Positions 20,618 through 48,730 of a DNA stretch of 64,000 nucleotides are shown here, piece after piece. The stretch lies in assembly GCF_024436435.1 (NCBI RefSeq), contig NZ_JAFMZP010000005.1, forward strand, positions 124,001 to 188,000, read 5' to 3'. Numbering within the stretch: the first letter of the stretch is position 1; each line of letters starts with the position of its first letter. The stretch comes from Desertivirga xinjiangensis. GTDB taxonomy: Bacteria; Bacteroidota; Bacteroidia; Sphingobacteriales; Sphingobacteriaceae. The translations under genes were made by a program, and so were the position numbers. Below the pieces are notes generated by a model, which worked only from the letters and a program-made list of their open reading frames with translations, made no database searches and was not told where the DNA came from.

Positions 20618-22522
20618 TCAGGTCTGGGAATATTCCTGTAGCAGCTGGCGATATCGATCAAGTATGGTTGATTTTGAAATAAAACCAGTGAAGCGTCCGT
20701 CTTTATCCACCACTGGCAGACGCCACAAATCCGACTCATCAAACTTCTTAACAATGTGATTTACATTACTGTCAGCAAATACCACAGCGCTTGGCACCCG
20801 CAGGAGCTTAGCTATACTTATACTGGTACCAGAGCTGAACATGTAAGGCCTGAGATCATCAAGAGTAATAATTCCCTGAAACACCATATCGCCGTCAACA
20901 ACTGCTATATGGTTCTTCTTTCCGTTTTTGACCAGGTTGAGCAGCTCATCAAACGTTGCTGTGACTAAGATTTTTTGTACATCCTTTTCTATAAGATCTT
21001 CTGTGTTGAGCAGTGATAGTAGATTTTTATCGTGTTCGCGTGTGAATATCTTTCCCTCTTCAGTAAGTTCCTGCAGATCAGGTGAGACTGGCGAAAAGGC
21101 TCTGGCCATCAGGTAGGAGATCACCGAAACGATCATCAGGGGAATGAAAAGGTCATATCCGGCGCTGGACTCTGCAATCAGAAATATTGCGGTGAGCGGA
21201 GCGTACAAAACGCCGCTCATAACACCAGCCATGCCTACGATCACCAGATTTACGAAGGGAACATTTTCGAAGCCCAGAAGGTTGCATAGTGTGGCAAAAA
21301 AGCAGCCAAGTGTGCCTCCGGCAAAAAGAGACGGAGCGAAGTTTCCGCCATTTCCTCCAGATTGAATAGTTATAGAGGTGGCAAATGCTTTAGCCAGACA
21401 AGTTAACCCCAGAAATCCCAGCATCATCACGGGTTCGTATTCAAAATACCGGAAAAAGCTGTTCGCAATGATTTTTTCTCCTTGCCCGTTAGTAATGTCC
21501 TTTATTGTTTGATAGCCTTCTCCGAAAAGAGGAGGCAGCAAAACGCAGAATATGGAAAGTAACATGCCGCCAAGCATCGCCTTCTGCATTTTTGAAATAG
21601 TAAGCTTCTTGAAAAATCGTTCGACTGAATGGGTTACAACTACGAAATAGCGGGCATAGAACCCACAGGCAACTCCGAGCATGATATAAAATGGAACGTT
21701 ATAATAATTGAACGCTGTACGGGCAGTAAAATGAAAAAGGATGTCTTCCTGCAGGATTATCCTTGACAAGAGGCTACCGCAGACAGCAGCTATTACCAGG
21801 GGAATGAAATCCGTAAAGACCACTCCGGTAAGCAATATTTCAAATGCGAACATCATACCGGCTATCGGGGCATTAAAAGCGGAGGCAATTCCGGCAGTGG
21901 CTCCTGCGGCCAATAATAGAGTGCGGTCCTTGTAAGGCAAGCCGTAACGCTGTGCATAATTCGATCCGATAGCAGACCCCGTAACGGCTATCGGACTTTC
22001 CAGTCCTGCCGATCCGCCAAGGCCAACTGTTACTGCACTCTGAATGATCTGTGAATACATCTTTACCTTAGATACCAGGCTTGAATTCTGTGCTATCTCA
22101 TACAAGATCGCAGGAATACCTTTTCTGTCTTGTCCTTTAAAGAAAACGACTACCAGCAAGGTTGTAAGGGTTATCCCTAGAAAAGGAAACACTATATAAA
22201 AGAGTATCTGGTATTCAAAATGGACCTCTCGGGTAATGAGATGATGGATGTAAGAAACAAGTGATTTCAGAATAACTCCTGCCAGACCAGCGGTTATGCC
22301 AACAAGAATACCAGAGAGAATAAGGAACTGGTTCCTGGAAAGCTTACTTTTAAGCCAGTGCAGCACAATTTCATAACTTTTCGCAGTACTTACTCCATAC
22401 CGGGTAAAATCCTTTTTGAACCTAAGGAAACTATGATATTTTTTTATGTATCTGAAATCAGCCAAATTTTTGCGGTGCCCGAATTTATTTATTGGATTAC
22501 AAATGTAGTTAATCCTTCGCAT
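20618..22522 (-). CDS. ClC-family chloride channel/antiporter with CBS domains
   Basis: A 634-residue protein by the longest reading frame. The ClC core (about 65-485) shows the three anion-path motifs: RKGIPAILYE (the GxGIP position), SAGLESP with the gating glutamate E175, and GGNGGNFAPSLFAGG (GxFxP, near residue 393). A GIASAFNAPIAG motif follows the second. A pair of CBS domains occupies about 505-634, ending VDKDGRFTGFISKS. The gating Glu is present, so H+/Cl- exchange is possible. The start is uncertain: ATG 22522 overlaps the imuA remnant by 34 bp and the first 60 residues look unlike the family, so translation may begin at a later non-ATG codon. Confidence 0.92.
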   Translation of the reverse strand: MRRINYICNPINKFGHRKNLADFRYIKKYHSFLRFKKDFTRYGVSTAKSYEIVLHWLKSKLSRNQFLILSGILVGITAGLAGVILKSLVSYIHHLITREVHFEYQILFYIVFPFLGITLTTLLVVVFFKGQDRKGIPAILYEIAQNSSLVSKVKMYSQIIQSAVTVGLGGSAGLESPIAVTGSAIGSNYAQRYGLPYKDRTLLLAAGATAGIASAFNAPIAGMMFAFEILLTGVVFTDFIPLVIAAVCGSLLSRIILQEDILFHFTARTAFNYYNVPFYIMLGVACGFYARYFVVVTHSVERFFKKLTISKMQKAMLGGMLLSIFCVLLPPLFGEGYQTIKDITNGQGEKIIANSFFRYFEYEPVMMLGFLGLTCLAKAFATSITIQSGGNGGNFAPSLFAGGTLGCFFATLCNLLGFENVPFVNLVIVGMAGVMSGVLYAPLTAIFLIAESSAGYDLFIPLMIVSVISYLMARAFSPVSPDLQELTEEGKIFTREHDKNLLSLLNTEDLIEKDVQKILVTATFDELLNLVKNGKKNHIAVVDGDMVFQGIITLDDLRPYMFSSGTSISIAKLLRVPSAVVFADSNVNHIVKKFDESDLWRLPVVDKDGRFTGFISKSTILDRYRQLLQEYSQT

Positions 22523-22902
22523 TTCAAAGCTTCTTCTGTTGCCCAGAGTACATCCTTTTCCCGGTTTACATCGATAACTAGTATACGGTCAGGTGCCAGC
22601 CCTGTTGACAATAGTGATGGGGGGAAAACTTGCCTGGAGGTACTGATCCATAAGCAAATTCCATTATCTTTTACTAATGAGCCTAAGAGAGCGCTCATAA
22701 ATCCCAGGCAAGCAGAGGATTGTTCTCCGGCTGCTACAAATTCGTGGATAGTTCCTGTAGGGAAGGTTTGGTTTGGAAATGCAGCTTCAATTGCCTTGAG
22801 ACCTGAAACACGATTTCCATCTGTATTAACTGGTTTAAAACCCTCAAGAAGCAGAATTTTTTTCCGCAGTTGATTGATGATATTTTGTTTATCGGCTCGC
22901 AT
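22489..22902 (-). pseudogene. imuA: 3'-truncated imuA (SOS mutagenesis cassette protein)
   Basis: A 137-residue reading frame matching the first part of Bacteroidota ImuA, a RecA-like partner of ImuB and DnaE2 in translesion synthesis. Landmarks are LQGFK-like LLEGFKP, AFPNQTFPTGTIHEFVAAG, LWISTSRQVFPP, LAPDRILVIDVNREKDVLWA and EEALKCEGL. Normal ImuA is about 240 residues; here the frame ends eight residues after EEALKCEGL, so roughly the last 100 are missing. No matching sequence follows in another frame before the ClC gene. No imuB lies next to it. The promoter and a dyad operator upstream are intact, so it may still be transcribed. dnaE2 near 63 kb implies a fuller cassette beyond the window. 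Confidence 0.82.
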
Positions 22903-22928: not shown

Positions 22929-22956
22929 CAAATCTATTACTAAAACTATTAGTAAT
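22929..22956 (-). promoter_or_regulatory. imuA promoter -7 box with dyad operator
   Basis: On the minus strand a -7 box TAGATTTG (22936-22929) matches TAnnTTTG. Directly upstream is a perfect dyad with 8-bp arms, ATTACTAA-N5-TTAGTAAT (22936-22956), filling the space between the -7 and -33 positions. A repressor bound there would block RNA polymerase. No good -33 element is visible. The same dyad occurs in the same position before the radical SAM gene at 25513. Confidence 0.7.
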
Positions 22957-23153
22957 TTAAAAATATGAATAAATTAATTTTTGCCTCAGTTTTGATGGGT
23001 GGGGGTTGTTGTTTTAATTATTCCCCATATAATCTTGAATTTTTCGCCCCTTAATATTTTTCAACCCTACTAAGTTTGGAAACAGGATAAACGAGCGTTC
23101 CTATAGAGCCTTGTCCTGATCATAAATTAATTATTAACCAATTGATAAACTGT

Positions 23154-25442
23154 ATGAAATTAAGCTTACCATTAATATCCCTGGGGCTATTGCTTCTGCT
23201 TTATAACTTTTCTTTAGCACAAACGCCCTGGCAATCGAAATTTGTTAAGATTGATGATGACGGAAAGCTAACCTACGTTCCTGATGCAAAGGGAAATATC
23301 ATCCCTGATTTTAGTAGGGTGGGCTACCATCGCGGAGATATACCTATTCCTGCAGTAAGGGTTGTTAAAACGATAACTTCTCCGGGGGCAAATGCAGACG
23401 CTACTCAACTCGTAAAAGACGCAATCACTGAAGTCAGCAATATGCCAATTGGAGCTGACGGCTTCCGTGGAGCTATCTTATTTAAAGCAGGTACTTATCG
23501 TATTAACGGAAAAATTCAGATAAAAGTTAGCGGCATTGTTTTACGAGGTGAAGGTAATTCTACATCCGGAACGGTTCTAATAGATACCGACTTAAATTCT
23601 CAGCATCGTTTTATTGAAATAGGCGATGGCACCTCCTCGAGAACGGAAGTGGCAGGAACCCGGGTAAATATAACTGATGCTTACGTTCCGGTAGGAGCTA
23701 CTACATTTACCGTTGCCGACGCCTCAAACTATAATGTTGGAGATGATATTATAGTGTACCGGCCAGCGACAGCCAATTGGATACACGATTTAAAAATGGA
23801 TCAGATCCCGCCCAATCCCGATGGGAGCACCCTGCAATGGACAACAGCAGAATACCATCTGTCATTCGAACGAAAAATTGAAAAGATTGAGGGCAACAAA
23901 ATTACTATTGAAAATCCGATAGTAATGGCAATGGAAACCAATTATGGAGGAGGGCAGATCTATAAATTTACGTCAAACAGGATTAAAGAGATTGGGATCG
24001 AAGATATGTACCTGCAATCTGCTTACCGTCCGGCTGTACTTAAATCCTGGGGTGATCCCAATAACCCAGCTCATTATACCTACGATGAACAACATGGATG
24101 GCACGCCGTGTATATACAAAGGACCGAAAATGCATGGGTAAAAAATATTACAGCTCAATATTTTGGTTTTTCTGCAGTTACTGTAGATTATTTAGCTAAG
24201 TGCGTGACCGTAATAGACAGTAAATGCATCAATGCGCAATCAAATATAACAGGAAGCAGAAGATATTCTTTTAATACCGGACAGGCTCATCTATGCTTAT
24301 TTAAAAACCTGGAAACCACAGATGGCAGGCATGATTTTGTTTCCGGGAATCAAAATTGCGGTCCGCATGTATTTACCAATTGTAAAGCCAGGGTTACTTA
24401 CGAAGCTGCTGGCCCTCACCATCGCTGGAGCACAGGCTATTTATACGATATGATTGATACAGATGGTGAACTGAGTGTGCAGGATAATGCTAACTATGGC
24501 ACAGGTCATGGCTGGATTGGAGCGAATATAGTTTTCTGGAACTGTAAGGTGAATAATACTGTTTTGCAATCGCCTTGGGTTTCGGCAAAAAATTATGGTA
24601 TAGGCATCCAGTATATCAACCCCGGAGTGCCTAATTTTCCCACCCCTGTACGGCCCAATGGTGAATGGGAAAACCCCAATACTCCCGGATTAACGCCAGC
24701 ATCCTTGTATGAGGCACAAGTGAAAGCCAAAAGGCAGCCCCCGCTTGGACAGGTAGTTGTTTTAAAAGCGAACAATGAAAAATATGTTACTGCAGATAGA
24801 ACACTGACATCCACTTCACCACCAATGACCGCCACCTTCACTACTTTGGGAACCTGGCAACATTTTACACTTGAAGACGCAGGAACCGGCCTTGTTTCCA
24901 TAAAGGGCTCCAACGGGAGATATGTATGTTCAAAAGATGGCCTTTCTGACATGCTCTGTGATAAAACCACTGTCGGCAGCTGGGAAAAATTCACCGTTGT
25001 GTTTTTGGGTTATAACTCGATCGCTCTTAAGGGGAACAACGGTAAGTATGTAAGTTCAAATAATGGCACTTCAAAAATGCGTTGTGATAAAACTACTATC
25101 GGTCCAGCTGAGATTTTCACTTGGTCGTATCCGGATGGAAGTACCACTGTTTTAAGTTTAGCTCCTGAATCTGGCGAAACCAGAAAAACGATTACTGATA
25201 CAGATCCTGGATTAGTTGTTTATCCCAACCCTGCAGAGAATAAAATTTCTATTGAGGTGAATAAGATGTTATTAAGCCGGATCTATTTATCGGATATGAG
25301 AGGAACTGTTTATAATCTGCCGGTTATAAAATCAGGAAATATTTTGGAGATAAATGTTTCATCTTTAATCCCGGGGACATATCTTCTTAATATTGTTAAG
25401 TATAGCGGCGAGGTGATCAGCAAGAAAATAATTAAGAATTGA
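23154..25442 (+). CDS. secreted beta-helix protein with beta-trefoil and T9SS sorting tail
   Basis: A 762-residue protein from ATG 23154 (the TTG at 23142 gives four extra residues before the signal peptide). A signal peptide runs to about residue 22 (FSLAQ). About 60-520 is a pectate-lyase-like right-handed beta-helix, opening with DATQLVKDAI, FKAGTYRINGKI and GIVLRGEGN and continuing with repeated strand turns. About 531-661 holds three repeats of a fascin-like beta-trefoil (YVTADR, YVCSKD, YVSSNN, each with a CDKTT-type ending in two copies). The last 75 residues (LVVYPNPAENKISIEV, then SGEVISKKIIKN) are a type A sorting domain for type IX secretion. It probably binds or cleaves a polysaccharide at the surface. 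No catalytic residues could be assigned. Confidence 0.85.
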   Translation: MKLSLPLISLGLLLLLYNFSLAQTPWQSKFVKIDDDGKLTYVPDAKGNIIPDFSRVGYHRGDIPIPAVRVVKTITSPGANADATQLVKDAITEVSNMPIGADGFRGAILFKAGTYRINGKIQIKVSGIVLRGEGNSTSGTVLIDTDLNSQHRFIEIGDGTSSRTEVAGTRVNITDAYVPVGATTFTVADASNYNVGDDIIVYRPATANWIHDLKMDQIPPNPDGSTLQWTTAEYHLSFERKIEKIEGNKITIENPIVMAMETNYGGGQIYKFTSNRIKEIGIEDMYLQSAYRPAVLKSWGDPNNPAHYTYDEQHGWHAVYIQRTENAWVKNITAQYFGFSAVTVDYLAKCVTVIDSKCINAQSNITGSRRYSFNTGQAHLCLFKNLETTDGRHDFVSGNQNCGPHVFTNCKARVTYEAAGPHHRWSTGYLYDMIDTDGELSVQDNANYGTGHGWIGANIVFWNCKVNNTVLQSPWVSAKNYGIGIQYINPGVPNFPTPVRPNGEWENPNTPGLTPASLYEAQVKAKRQPPLGQVVVLKANNEKYVTADRTLTSTSPPMTATFTTLGTWQHFTLEDAGTGLVSIKGSNGRYVCSKDGLSDMLCDKTTVGSWEKFTVVFLGYNSIALKGNNGKYVSSNNGTSKMRCDKTTIGPAEIFTWSYPDGSTTVLSLAPESGETRKTITDTDPGLVVYPNPAENKISIEVNKMLLSRIYLSDMRGTVYNLPVIKSGNILEINVSSLIPGTYLLNIVKYSGEVISKKIIKN

Positions 25443-25463
25443 AAGTTTAGTACGCTAACGAGT

Positions 25464-25493
25464 TTTGAATTGCTAAAATAATTAGTATTTTTG
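25464..25493 (+). promoter_or_regulatory. promoter and dyad operator of the radical SAM/repair pair
   Basis: TTTG at 25464-25467, an 18-bp spacer and TATTTTTG at 25486-25493 form a consensus Bacteroidota promoter. The spacer holds the dyad TTGCTAA-N5-TTAGTAT (25470-25488), which ends within the -7 box. It differs from the imuA operator at one position in each arm and keeps the CTAA-N5-TTAG core. A repressor common to both genes is the simplest reading. Confidence 0.72.
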
Positions 25494-25512: not shown

Positions 25513-26772
25513 ATGGTGAATGACCGCGTGACGCAGAAGCTTGAGATATTGGCTGGAGCGGCAAAATATGATGTTTCCTGCTCTTCGGGACAAGGCAATC
25601 GTGAGAATAAAAATAAAGGACTTGGAGATTCTAAAGCAAACGGCATCTGTCATTCCTTTACCGAAGATGGGCGATGCGTAGCCCTGCTCAAGATCTTATT
25701 AACTAACCATTGTATTTTTGATTGTGCTTACTGTGTAAGCCGTAAAAGTAATGACGTAAAACGCGCTGCCTTTACCGTAGACGAGGTTGTTGATCTCACC
25801 ATTAGTTTTTACCGCAGGAATTACATTGAAGGATTATTTCTAAGTTCAGGAATTTTCTACAGCCCCGATTATACCATGGAGCGACTGGTTAAAATCGTCA
25901 AAAAACTACGCAAAGAGCAAAACTTCAATGGTTATATCCATTTAAAAGCTATTCCGGGCGCTAGTGAGGAATTAATTAAAGAAGCTGGACTCTATGCAGA
26001 CCGTTTAAGTGTGAACGTAGAAATGCCAACCGAGCAGAGTTTAAAGCTCCTGGCACCTGATAAAAATCATCAGGATGTGATCAAACCAATGGAGTATCTT
26101 AAAAATGAAATTGCCGGTCATAAGGAGGAAACGAAATTGAATAAAAGGGCACCGGTTTTTGCACCAGCAGGTCAAAGTACCCAGATGGTGATCGGTGCGA
26201 CCAAAGAAAGTGACCTGGAAATCCTCGGAATGGCTGACTACTTCTATCAGCAAATGAAACTTAAACGGGTATATTATTCAGGTTATGTGCCGATAAGTTA
26301 TGATGGCCGGCTTCCAGCAATTGGCACCCCGGTTCCGATGATCCGGGAAAACAGGCTCTATCAGGCTGACTGGCTTGTGCGCTATTATGGTTTTCATGTC
26401 AATGAATTAGTAGGCTTTGATCAACCTAACCTCGAACTTGATATCGATCCAAAGCTAAGCTGGGCATTGAGGAATTTACATCAATTTCCGCTAGATATAA
26501 ACATAGCTGACATAGAACTCATAAACCGTGTCCCCGGAATCGGATTCTTAGGTGCTAAAAAAATTGTGGCTGCCCGTAAGTTCAAAACGCTTAAGCCCGA
26601 AGACTTAAAGCAAATGGGCATCGTCTACAACCGGGCAAAATATTTCTTAAGTGTAAGTAATCCTTTTTCAGCACATAAAGATTATACTGCAATTCAGATC
26701 AAAGAACGGATTCAGAATTTGCAGAATAGTAAATACAAAAGTGATTTTTCTCCGCAGTTAACCCTGTTTTAA
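25513..26772 (+). CDS. radical SAM protein, putative DNA modification/repair (TIGR03916 type)
   Basis: A 419-residue cytosolic protein. The radical SAM cluster cysteines are C67, C71 and C74 (CIFDCAYC), preceded by SFTEDGRCVALLKILLTN. The end carries a helix-hairpin-helix DNA-binding segment (about 330-355, INRVPGIGFLGAKKIVAARK). This architecture and sequence fit the TIGR03916 family, described as putative DNA modification/repair radical SAM proteins and usually paired with a TIGR03915 gene, which here starts 10 bp downstream. The reaction is unknown; the HhH and SAM parts suggest lesion repair or base modification. A consensus promoter with a dyad shared with imuA lies just upstream, which supports damage-inducible expression. 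Confidence 0.9.
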   Translation: MVNDRVTQKLEILAGAAKYDVSCSSGQGNRENKNKGLGDSKANGICHSFTEDGRCVALLKILLTNHCIFDCAYCVSRKSNDVKRAAFTVDEVVDLTISFYRRNYIEGLFLSSGIFYSPDYTMERLVKIVKKLRKEQNFNGYIHLKAIPGASEELIKEAGLYADRLSVNVEMPTEQSLKLLAPDKNHQDVIKPMEYLKNEIAGHKEETKLNKRAPVFAPAGQSTQMVIGATKESDLEILGMADYFYQQMKLKRVYYSGYVPISYDGRLPAIGTPVPMIRENRLYQADWLVRYYGFHVNELVGFDQPNLELDIDPKLSWALRNLHQFPLDINIADIELINRVPGIGFLGAKKIVAARKFKTLKPEDLKQMGIVYNRAKYFLSVSNPFSAHKDYTAIQIKERIQNLQNSKYKSDFSPQLTLF

Positions 26773-26782
26773 TTTTAAGCAG

Positions 26783-27574
26783 ATGACATCAGTTGTTTAC
26801 GACGGAACCTATGAAGGATGGCTGACAGCAGTCTTTGATATCTATGAATATAAGTTGGATGATGTGGTTTTTGCTAAAGGAGAACAAGCTGCAGCATTTC
26901 TTTTCGGAACAAGGCATGAAGTGACGACAGAAGATCGAAAAGCAAAGCGCGTACTAAAAGGCTTACAGCAACGATTATCATCAACTGCACTAAAGAATAT
27001 AAACTTAACGTTTTTGTCGGAAATTGACTATTCCGAAGATATCATGCTGCGTTTTGTTCGCTATGCATTCAGCAGTGGCGTAAATGTAGAGCAGGATTTA
27101 GCCAACCGCCTAGTGTGGGAAGTATGGGAGGCTGCCCGGCGGGTTAGAAAGGAAGCGCACCGAATGGAAGCTTTTGTACGCTTTAAACTTACAAAAGATG
27201 ATTTGTATGATCCATTGTATTATGCTGTTATCGAACCACAATGTGATGTTTTACCTCTTATTAGCGATCATTTTAAAAACCGCTATGCAGACCAGCGCTG
27301 GTTGATTTATGATCTGAAGCGAAAGTACGGTATCTATTATGATTTAGAAATGCTGAATACCGTGGAGGTCCAATTCAGCGATAAGCTCGGCTCAGCGCAA
27401 ATAAAAGCAGAGCTCTGCGACGAACGCGAAGAACATTTTCAGAACCTCTGGTGTCGCTATTTCGGCGCGGTAAATATAGAAGCCCGCAAAAATCTGCGCT
27501 TACAAATGAAACATATGCCTAAACGATACTGGAAATATTTGACAGAGAAGATGCCGGATTACCATCGTTCATAA
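26783..27574 (+). CDS. TIGR03915-type putative DNA repair protein
   Basis: A 263-residue protein, partner of the radical SAM gene 10 bp upstream and sharing its operator. Landmarks for the family are YDGTYEGWLTAVFDIYE at the N-terminus, RRVRKEAHRMEAFVRFKL in the middle, FKNRYADQRWLIYDLKRKYGIYYD and the end LRLQMKHMPKRYWKYLTEKMP. There is no signal peptide. Family members are nearly always next to TIGR03916 and sometimes near or fused to uracil-DNA-glycosylase-like domains; no such domain is fused here. Biochemical role unknown. The many basic and aromatic residues are compatible with nucleic-acid binding. Confidence 0.88.
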   Translation: MTSVVYDGTYEGWLTAVFDIYEYKLDDVVFAKGEQAAAFLFGTRHEVTTEDRKAKRVLKGLQQRLSSTALKNINLTFLSEIDYSEDIMLRFVRYAFSSGVNVEQDLANRLVWEVWEAARRVRKEAHRMEAFVRFKLTKDDLYDPLYYAVIEPQCDVLPLISDHFKNRYADQRWLIYDLKRKYGIYYDLEMLNTVEVQFSDKLGSAQIKAELCDEREEHFQNLWCRYFGAVNIEARKNLRLQMKHMPKRYWKYLTEKMPDYHRS

Positions 27575-43734: not shown

Positions 43735-43930
43735 GGGGATCAAGTAGAAAAGTTGGGGGCGGCTAAGCGCATTAGTGCCAAACTTTTTAAAACGGTCGTC
43801 ATGCCGATCCTGAATCAAGTTCAGGATTCGGCAACTCTTGGACTATAAAGGACCTGCTTAAGCAAGAGGTCCTGAAACAAGTTCAGGATGACGAAGGAAA
43901 AGAACAACCTCCAACTTTTCCGCTTGATCC
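43735..43930 (-). repeat. MITE-like element with terminal inverted repeats
   Basis: About 196 bp ending in inverted repeats of the form GGATCAAG-N2-AAAAGTTGG (left from 43737, right to 43930). ACGATGGG occurs directly on both sides (43727-43734 and 43931-43938), as expected for an 8-bp target duplication. Inside are palindromes built on CCTGAACTTG/CAAGTTCAGG. There is no coding capacity. The second, damaged copy lies at 38772-38936 in the opposite orientation, so the element has moved in this genome. Confidence 0.8.
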
Positions 43931-46552: not shown

Positions 46553-48730
46553 CTAATTATTCTTAATGCCAATTTCTTTTAGCAGAAACCCTGCTTTATC
46601 AACCTTTGATGCTACCCACAACACATACCGGATATCCACACCAATAGACCTGCTATAATTCTCGTTCCAGGCATAATCATTAATTGTTGCTTCGTAAGCC
46701 CTGTCGAAATTCACTCCAACCAGCTCGCCATAGGCGTTCATTATTGGGGAGCCCGAGTTGCCGCCCGTAGTGTCCATATTGTAGAGGAAGGCTACAGGTA
46801 CATCGTTCAGATCATTCTTTGCGAAGGGTCCAAAATCTTTTGCCTGCCACAGGTTCTTAATAACCGGCGGATAACGGTAATCCGGGTTATCGGTACTGCC
46901 TTTTTCCAACAGGCCCTTAATGGTGGTAAAAGGCTTCATATAAGTAGCATCAGAAGGGGAGTAGCCTCTCACATAACCGTAGGTTAGCCTTAAGGTACTG
47001 TTGGCATCCGGAATGAATAGCTGTTTCTTATGCAGTTCTTTCATCGCTACATAATCGCCCATTAGTTTGTTCAATAAGCCTTCAGTGCGGTCTCTTTCAT
47101 GTTTGCTTTCAAAGATCTGCTTGCTTAAACCTATTTCGAAGTTTAGCAGGGCATCATTATAAGAGCTTAGCGTAGTGGACGATTTCAATAGCGTGTTCAG
47201 TACATAATTTTCATCCTTCAGTCTGGTGTATTCCAGGGTGCTGCCTATAAATTTGTCGATCTGTTCCTGGTTACTAAAGCCTTTAGTGATCATCTTGTCT
47301 ACGATCTGGATGCGTTGATTTTTGGGAAGCTGTGAAGCGTCTAATAGCATTTTTGTGAAGATTGTCCTGTCGGCATCCAGGTCATAACTATCGTATATCT
47401 GTTTTAAATTAGCTGAGAGGAACTTGACGCTGTCGGTATAAAATTTTTCTTTCAGGGCCCCAGGTTTCGCCGCCATTCTCATTTTAAAAGAATTGATCTG
47501 CCGGGCTACACTCAATAAGCTGGTGCTGCTATAGATCTGTGCCAGCCACATATCGCGGTAAACGCTACTATAGATCACTTTATAAAGCTGGTCGATGTCG
47601 CTCATCAGGTTACCATAATTCTTTTTTAGTTCAATATCCGAATTGATGAAGGCAGCTAGTTCTGCGTCCTCTTTAGCTTTTTGCTCAACAAGGTTGAGGC
47701 CCTTTAGTCCTTTAAGCTTACCGCGGTAGTTTTTCAATACATTTGCATTGCGTTTGATCCTTGTTGAGAGCTTTAATTCGGTAGCACGGTTCTTCTTCCC
47801 GGTTTCTTCCAGTACTTTGTTCTGATAATCATACAGATTGGCGGTGTAGGGAAGCAGGTATTCCTGCTGGTAACGGATGAATTGAGATGGCCGGTTTCTA
47901 AAAGTCCTGCCGGGATAGCCAAGGATGAAAACAAAGTCTTCTTCACTTACGCCATTTGCGTTCACCTTCAAGAACTTCTTCGGGGTGTAGGGTACGTTGT
48001 CTTTGGAGTATTGAGCTGAACTTCCGTCGGGTGCTACATAGGCCCTCATGAATGCAAAGTCGCCGGTATGCCTGGGCCATACCCAGTTATCTGTTTCACC
48101 TCCGAATTCACCGATGTCGCGTCTGGGTACATAAACCAACCTTACGTCCTGAATAGTTTTGTACCTGAATAATACATAGGTTTTCCCAATAAACATCTCA
48201 GACACCTCAGCCCTGATGGTTTTATCGCTGCTTTCTGCCTGCCGGGCAATATCCTTCATCTTATCATTGATGATGCGTATACGAGCCGCAGGGTCAGTGA
48301 TGCCTGTTACGGCACCGAGGACCTGCGCAGAAACGTCTTCATAGCTGTCGGTGATGCGGCAGGTGAGGCCTTTAGCGGAGATTTCCTTTTGTTTGGAACC
48401 GGCTACAAAGCCATTTTCAAGGTAGTCGTTTTCCGGAGAACTTGCCTGCTGGACAGCACTAAAGGCACAATGATGATTAGTAATGATCAAGCCTTCATTC
48501 GATATGAACGAGCCGGTACATCCGCCGACATTTACTAATGCATCGATCAGGCTTATGCTGTCGGGATTGTAAATTTCTTTCTGGCTGATCTTTAGTCCCG
48601 CCTTATTTAAGTCAATTTTATTCAACTCACTCAGGGGAAACATGCCTTCGTCGAATGGACGGTAGGCAGAGACGCCAACCAACAATGCAACGAGGGCAAG
48701 GCCTCCGAAGGTTTTCCTGCTAAATTTCAT
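46553..48730 (-). CDS. S46-family dipeptidyl-peptidase, DPP11-like
   Basis: A 725-residue periplasmic serine peptidase with a signal peptide (about 1-22). The triad fits H87 (TNHHCAF), D224 (RHTGDFAFMR) and S659 (TGGNSGSP). The helical cap domain is in the middle (about 290-570). In S46 peptidases the residue after FD near the end sets specificity: Gly for hydrophobic P1 (DPP7), Arg for Asp/Glu (DPP11). Here it is R677 in GVNFDRAYE, which points to DPP11-type cutting after acidic residues. It frees dipeptides from oligopeptides for uptake. It is a single gene, ending at a shared terminator. Confidence 0.93.
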   Translation of the reverse strand: MKFSRKTFGGLALVALLVGVSAYRPFDEGMFPLSELNKIDLNKAGLKISQKEIYNPDSISLIDALVNVGGCTGSFISNEGLIITNHHCAFSAVQQASSPENDYLENGFVAGSKQKEISAKGLTCRITDSYEDVSAQVLGAVTGITDPAARIRIINDKMKDIARQAESSDKTIRAEVSEMFIGKTYVLFRYKTIQDVRLVYVPRRDIGEFGGETDNWVWPRHTGDFAFMRAYVAPDGSSAQYSKDNVPYTPKKFLKVNANGVSEEDFVFILGYPGRTFRNRPSQFIRYQQEYLLPYTANLYDYQNKVLEETGKKNRATELKLSTRIKRNANVLKNYRGKLKGLKGLNLVEQKAKEDAELAAFINSDIELKKNYGNLMSDIDQLYKVIYSSVYRDMWLAQIYSSTSLLSVARQINSFKMRMAAKPGALKEKFYTDSVKFLSANLKQIYDSYDLDADRTIFTKMLLDASQLPKNQRIQIVDKMITKGFSNQEQIDKFIGSTLEYTRLKDENYVLNTLLKSSTTLSSYNDALLNFEIGLSKQIFESKHERDRTEGLLNKLMGDYVAMKELHKKQLFIPDANSTLRLTYGYVRGYSPSDATYMKPFTTIKGLLEKGSTDNPDYRYPPVIKNLWQAKDFGPFAKNDLNDVPVAFLYNMDTTGGNSGSPIMNAYGELVGVNFDRAYEATINDYAWNENYSRSIGVDIRYVLWVASKVDKAGFLLKEIGIKNN

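Follow-up and report, generated by a model that had tools for sequence, protein, structure and literature searches.

What regulator connects two promoters in a 64,000-nucleotide stretch of the Desertivirga xinjiangensis genome (the window, by which the whole stretch is meant), one 5' of a truncated copy of imuA and the other 5' of a pair of genes for putative DNA repair proteins of the families TIGR03916 and TIGR03915? Both carry an inverted repeat, or dyad, of the form CTAA-N5-TTAG. With a probability of about 0.94, the non-canonical LexA of the Bacteroidetes, which in this genome would be the XRE-S24 repressor encoded on contig C21, has its operators (SOS boxes) in these two dyads, and DNA damage very probably induces the adjoining repair genes in this organism. 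The two sites and the promoter elements next to them are:

22937-22955, no strand assigned: putative SOS operator of the truncated imuA, the CTAA-N5-TTAG dyad TTACTAAAACTATTAGTAA, or TTACTAA-N5-TTAGTAA, an exact match
25470-25488, no strand assigned: putative SOS operator of the TIGR03916/TIGR03915 pair, TTGCTAAAATAATTAGTAT, or TTGCTAA-N5-TTAGTAT, a match to the pattern
22936-22929, minus strand: -7 promoter box of the imuA fragment, TAGATTTG, beginning right after the dyad and abutting it
25486-25493, plus strand: -7 box of TIGR03916, TATTTTTG, sharing 3 bases with the right arm of the dyad
25464-25467, plus strand: candidate -33 box of TIGR03916, TTTG, 18 bp before the -7 box, picked out by eye

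TAnnTTTG is the -7 consensus of Bacteroidetes promoters, which also have a -33 consensus. The sequence-only reading of this DNA had reported the same kind of dyad at the two promoters, and both are indeed present. It had also held that arms, gap and position agree; in position the agreement is to within 3 bp, since the box of the imuA fragment abuts its dyad and that of TIGR03916 overlaps its dyad by 3 bases. Counted from the end of the dyad, TAnnTTTG in relatives begins at 0 or -1 bp for 24 hits at 31 imuA loci; the 15 TIGR03916 loci give 7 hits at -3 and one further hit at +6. Within the window, TTRCTAA-N5-TTAGTAW has three exact readings, these being the imuA dyad on both strands and the TIGR03916 dyad on one. 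When up to 2 mismatches are allowed there are 9 matches against 2.8 expected, a number reached by 1 of 100 shuffles, while the symmetric TTRCTAA-N5-TTAGYAA gives 4 matches against 1.7, which 8 of 100 shuffles reach. Taken alone, the window counts are only suggestive. A third dyad in the window, at 47271-47289 and with one mismatch, is within a 725-codon open reading frame (ORF) and was treated as a chance occurrence.

Conservation was scored as a dyad with no more than 2 mismatches within the 150 bp 5' of the gene. In the same family, such a dyad is present before all 15 TIGR03916 genes that score over the cut-off (15 of 41 genomes have one), before all 23 orthologues of the repressor and before 28 of the 31 imuA loci fetched, which are a subset of 61 matches in 51 of 101 genomes; the expectation that the site would recur at these genes in relatives is borne out. 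Single-base shuffles of the same stretches reach this level in 1.3% (TIGR03916), 2.0% (repressor) and 0.9% (imuA) of cases. Windows elsewhere in the fetched loci do so in 0.9% when chosen at random and in 3.0% when AT-rich; loci L160-L162 were used for this pool of windows alone. Excluded before counting were L052, where the TIGR03916 match is under the cut-off, and the repressor homologue loci L076-L082, of which six belong to different families of the class and one is partial.

Across 25 genomes of the family, TTRCTAA-N5-TTAGYAW occurs exactly 168 times against 31 for the reversed control, counting both strands, and the real number exceeds the control in 22 of the 25. From among the matches listed, 73 exact sites were read in 72 stretches from relatives, a few places at contig ends or already fetched being omitted, and the gene classes behind them were named from the Pfam results for this genome or by eye. 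By clustering, 30 of these 73 precede genes of SOS or repair type: splB-like (10), dinB/umuC-like (5), imuA (4), umuD-like (4), repressor (3), RNase_T/GIY-YIG exonuclease (2) and recA (2). Among the same listed matches, five sites are before DUF763, four before 2'-5' RNA ligase-like genes and three before a gene for a secreted protein that this genome has as well; the remainder belong to single or small uncharacterised groups, and 9 of the 73 are within an ORF of at least 100 amino acids (aa).

In the 5.5 Mb genome itself, TTRCTAA-N5-TTAGYAW is found exactly 18 times and its reversed control not at all (0, both strands counted). The symmetric TTRCTAA-N5-TTAGYAA occurs at 5 exact and 18 one-mismatch places, and 7 of these 23 precede recognisable SOS or repair genes or the repressor, namely XRE-S24 repressor, intact imuA, imuA fragment, TIGR03916, dinB, sbcD and RNase_T/GIY-YIG exonuclease. 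The dyad of the intact imuA, whose presence had been anticipated, is at C19:374356, with an imuB-like ORF following (by eye), and that of dinB is at C22:190702, 2.7 kb past the end of the window. The site of the repressor is common to a small divergent gene, GIY-YIG-like by eye and without a Pfam match. Further sites with zero or one mismatch precede a DUF763 gene (1), a DUF4007 gene, a 2'-5' RNA ligase-like gene (C23:135859), a gene for a secreted protein, genes for small unknown proteins (three places), an uncharacterised gene and a prophage-like region; those left over are within ORFs or unclear. Where the core is exact but there are two or three mismatches, the genes that follow are rmuC, a splB-like radical SAM gene and a second 2'-5' RNA ligase-like gene. 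A genome search had been expected to place the sites before recA, imuA, an S24-type repressor and TIGR03916. It did so for the last three and not for recA, and the sites are concentrated at SOS and repair genes, not confined to them. The signal resides in the extended dyad and its placement.

Some sites were not counted towards the regulon. Those at L009, L011, L015, L018-L020, L025-L027, L031 and L032, and the first of the sites at L023 and at L035, are within ORFs; that of L033 is in a frame of 51 codons, with a sigma-factor-like ORF 84 bp further on; and for L021, L028, L034, L036 and the first L022 site the genes behind are not tied to repair.

The sequence-only reading had predicted a common LexA-like repressor encoded outside the window, and the genome contains a gene that answers to it:

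280556-281329 of contig C21, minus strand: XRE-S24 repressor of 258 aa, HTH_3 + Peptidase_S24

Its two domains score over their cut-offs (PF01381, HTH_3, E 1.3e-12; PF00717, Peptidase_S24, E 3.1e-6), and this is the one match to PF00717 over the cut-off in the whole genome, the only other S24-like match being a weak one on C1, with none in the window. An exact dyad is present in the promoter of the repressor gene itself. The LexA winged helix (PF01726) was not found in the protein, for which the Pfam scan returned HTH_3, HTH_19, HTH_31 and Peptidase_S24 only. Ala106-Gly107, Ser143 and Lys182 are kept in all 22 aligned orthologues, which are those of the 23 family loci other than L075. Among named genomes, the best 80 of 237 relatives gave 79 usable repressor loci (L280 is too short); in all 79 the exact core CTAA-N5-TTAG is present upstream, and all 79 have two sites at no more than 3 mismatches. 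These best 80 are mostly from Pedobacter, Mucilaginibacter, Sphingobacterium, Olivibacter and Desertivirga, genera which we take to be Sphingobacteriaceae.

A system of this kind has been described. According to the main text of Sanchez-Osuna et al. (2021, PMC8565304), non-canonical LexA proteins in the Bacteroidetes are S24 repressors with a phage-type helix-turn-helix (HTH) that bind CTAA-N5-TTAG. Binding by electrophoretic mobility shift assay and mitomycin-C induction of targets by reverse transcription quantitative PCR are reported there for other Bacteroidetes, including P. actiniarum with this motif. The regulon given in the same text comprises imuA-imuB-dnaE2 and a COG1573-COG4277 pair, and the Sphingobacteriaceae are named among the families with large regulons of the CTAA-N5-TTAG type. 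A CTAA-N5-TTAG dyad in the promoters of SOS genes, which characterises that regulon, is what is found here.

By analogy with those Bacteroidetes, a dimer of the C21 repressor would, in the undamaged cell, occupy CTAA-N5-TTAG beside or over the -7 box and keep the promoters off. On DNA damage, RecA filaments would stimulate self-cleavage of the repressor at Ala106-Gly107 by the Ser143/Lys182 dyad, as the S24 family in general would lead one to expect; the cleaved dimer would then dissociate and the repair genes be expressed.

Several observations weigh against this interpretation. Three of the 31 imuA loci have no dyad at 2 mismatches or fewer, two having one at 3 mismatches and L170 nothing recognisable. 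Of the seven excluded repressor homologue loci, two have a site with no more than 2 mismatches close to the start of the gene and the other five lack one, so that a dyad before the repressor is to be taken as a rule of the family. Several of the places with zero or one mismatch are within ORFs (L009, L011, L015, the first of L023 and of L035, and window 47271), and the long pattern at 2 or fewer mismatches shows a small excess, 168 against 135 per strand. The recA gene of this genome has degenerate dyads only, with 3 mismatches. At the 23 repressor loci, no TAnnTTTG box turned up next to the dyad, and the 7 hits at -3 from 15 TIGR03916 loci make no rule. In the main text of PMC8565304, the authors note that data from a non-cleavable mutant are lacking, and report that recA of S. 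agarivorans, the repressor of which uses another motif, is not induced.

The AT-rich composition of promoter spacers raises the question of whether the dyads might be artefacts of chance or composition. AT-rich windows do give dyads in the 3.0% of cases noted above, shuffles reproduce the symmetric pattern of the window at the frequency already given, and the bare core RCTAA-N5-TTAGY has no convincing enrichment across the genome, with 41 places against 30 in the control, which counts against the SOS operators also. Such artefacts would not, however, be expected to recur upstream at 15 of 15, 23 of 23 and 28 of 31 loci with divergent spacers, nor to outnumber their control by 168 to 31 in 25 genomes, and on these cross-genome counts the explanation was rejected; we give it hardly any credence. 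The other alternative is that the same promoters are shared by a different regulator, for example a prophage CI-like or an unrelated HTH repressor, whose operators the dyads would be. The genome does have the weak second S24-like match (C1:164154-164570, near a contig end, 34% identity to the C-terminal part of the repressor), a further point against the C21 assignment, and a one-mismatch dyad in a prophage-like region at C1:139386. Yet the dyad is upstream of the C21 repressor orthologues at 23 of 23 loci in the same family and at 79 of 79 usable named loci (best 80 of 237), and a published member of the same repressor group binds this core, according to the main text of PMC8565304, so that a different regulator appears very improbable.

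A further possibility concerns the box of the imuA fragment alone, and is compatible with its origin as an operator of the C21 repressor: it may be a relic without current function, surviving only because little time has passed since the loss. The imuA gene here has lost its 3' part, neither imuB nor dnaE2 is beside the fragment, an intact imuA is present on C19, and so short a frame is absent from the other 60 imuA matches in 51 genomes except in G073. Against this, the box is a perfect dyad, the frame of the fragment is open, and the ClC gene that directly follows on the same strand could use the promoter. On balance we somewhat favour the relic. The two genes are:

22489-22902, minus strand: truncated imuA, 137 aa, C-terminal part missing (NF033429, E 7.8e-13)
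20618-22522, minus strand: ORF for a ClC-type chloride channel, immediately 3' of the imuA fragment

The fragment scores 48.7 bits against the NF033429 cut-off of 150 and covers model positions 16-116 of 181, which falls short of a full-length ImuA. Its description as a remnant holds, since of the other 60 imuA matches 59 are in open frames of at least 244 codons; the one comparably short frame among the 61 is that of G073, of 100 codons. A search for relatives of the short imuA in the named genomes found none. The gene after the fragment on the same strand is ClC and not imuB. By comparison by eye with a homologue in G001 (63% identity), the true start of ClC is likely to be just past the stop of the fragment; no imuA was found in the 420 nt translated upstream of the G001 homologue, where other sequence is present. 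A possible separate -7 box, TACATTTG, was seen by eye at the junction of the fragment and ClC (22460-22522 region), and ClC may be read either from this box or from the SOS promoter.

The pair of genes behind the other operator is as follows:

25513-26772, plus strand: TIGR03916 radical SAM putative DNA repair protein, 419 aa (E 1.8e-192, 640 bits, cut-off 343.5)
26783-27574, plus strand: TIGR03915/DUF4130 putative DNA repair protein, 263 aa (E 2.5e-78, 263.1 bits, cut-off 112.25; PF13566)

The second gene starts 11 bp past the first on the same strand. As in the known TIGR03916-TIGR03915 (rSAM_link_UDG / DUF4130) pair, the two are adjacent and both score over the curated cut-offs, with nothing unusual about them. 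The two families are presumably the same as COG4277 and COG1573, respectively. A literature search by family names found no biochemical test of the pair. What the sites add is a family-wide tie of this uncharacterised pair to the SOS response, in support of a function either in error-prone synthesis or in dealing with induced damage. DUF4130, the Pfam match of the second gene, is predicted to be a mutagenesis-related enzyme in the passages of PMC3765255 that concern it.

Two other gene families have dyads that may extend the regulon. A dyad with no more than 2 mismatches is present at 7 of 8 DUF763 matches (8 of 41 genomes), and in five of these the first matched codon comes 10-11 bp after it. 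Of 19 matches to the 2'-5' RNA ligase-like gene, the six that are closest (identity 49-100%, with this genome among them) all have the dyad; of the other 13, four have it and nine do not, including the seventh closest, which is from the same family. DUF763, COG1415, RNA ligase and SbcD are not mentioned in the main text of PMC8565304, though its supplements may differ, and DUF763 was not found together with SOS in the literature searched, from which supplements or further papers may likewise differ. Conserved SOS-type boxes would give these genes a functional context. These dyads, and the truncated imuA upstream of ClC, are possible additions to the known regulon. It is a tentative proposal, and on present evidence a doubtful one, that DUF763 and 2'-5' RNA ligase/LigT-like genes are conserved SOS members of the Sphingobacteriaceae beyond the published core and that, in addition, a chance rearrangement put an SOS promoter with an ImuA fragment before ClC, making the channel damage-inducible.

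Other sites were seen at genes outside these groups. A secreted-looking protein at C23:213891 (L004), without a Pfam match in the stretch tested, starts 1-22 bp after an SOS-type dyad in four genomes (also L111, L153 and L159); the L004 site had been put down to chance, a reading given up once the box was seen at this gene in three further genomes. In two relatives, three genes (L096, L123, L124) for an uncharacterised protein some 150 aa long begin 16-17 bp after an exact SOS-type dyad. Small proteins starting MLFKVLSKV or MSFKVLSKV are encoded at C21:540913 (L002), C6:6980 (L008) and C25:7830 (L035), and at L105 in G001; their genes diverge from other small genes, the SOS-type dyad of each has TATTT or AAATA as its spacer, and no Pfam match was found for the three proteins tested.

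The one-mismatch dyad at C1:139386 (L007) lies between divergent genes of the prophage-like region, which has ParB-like and terminase-like ORFs (by eye), and a mobile element may thus use the SOS repressor of its host. At C11:212261 (L010), a one-mismatch dyad is about 100 bp before the DUF4007 gene, which is followed by an ATPase-like ORF (by eye). A 15-mer, GCTAAGCGCATTAGT, accounts for 11 of the 41 matches to the bare core (window 43762-43776 and ten other places), and a variant of it for a twelfth; it mimics the SOS core and is possibly an interspersed repeat.

The earlier hypothesis of shared SOS control is very probably correct, but it is not new: the window holds a new instance of a known regulon, the principle of which was published in 2021, and the possibly new part is small. 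The targets here overlap those of the published system in the imuA cassette, dinB, splB and the GIY-YIG exonuclease, as well as in the COG1573-COG4277 pair if the equivalence that we assume is right. The same core, the 5 bp gap and an HTH_3 + S24 repressor with its own box are likewise shared with the Bacteroidetes non-canonical LexA, as given in the main text of PMC8565304; unlike in that text, a truncated imuA with its own box is here beside a ClC gene. As with the canonical LexA of Escherichia coli, a self-cleaving, autoregulated S24 repressor with a DNA repair regulon would be expected. In contrast to that protein, the repressor here has an N-terminal phage-type HTH_3 instead of a winged helix, and the operators differ, CTAA-N5-TTAG in this genome standing against the CTGT-N8-ACAG that the main text of PMC8565304 quotes for E. 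coli.

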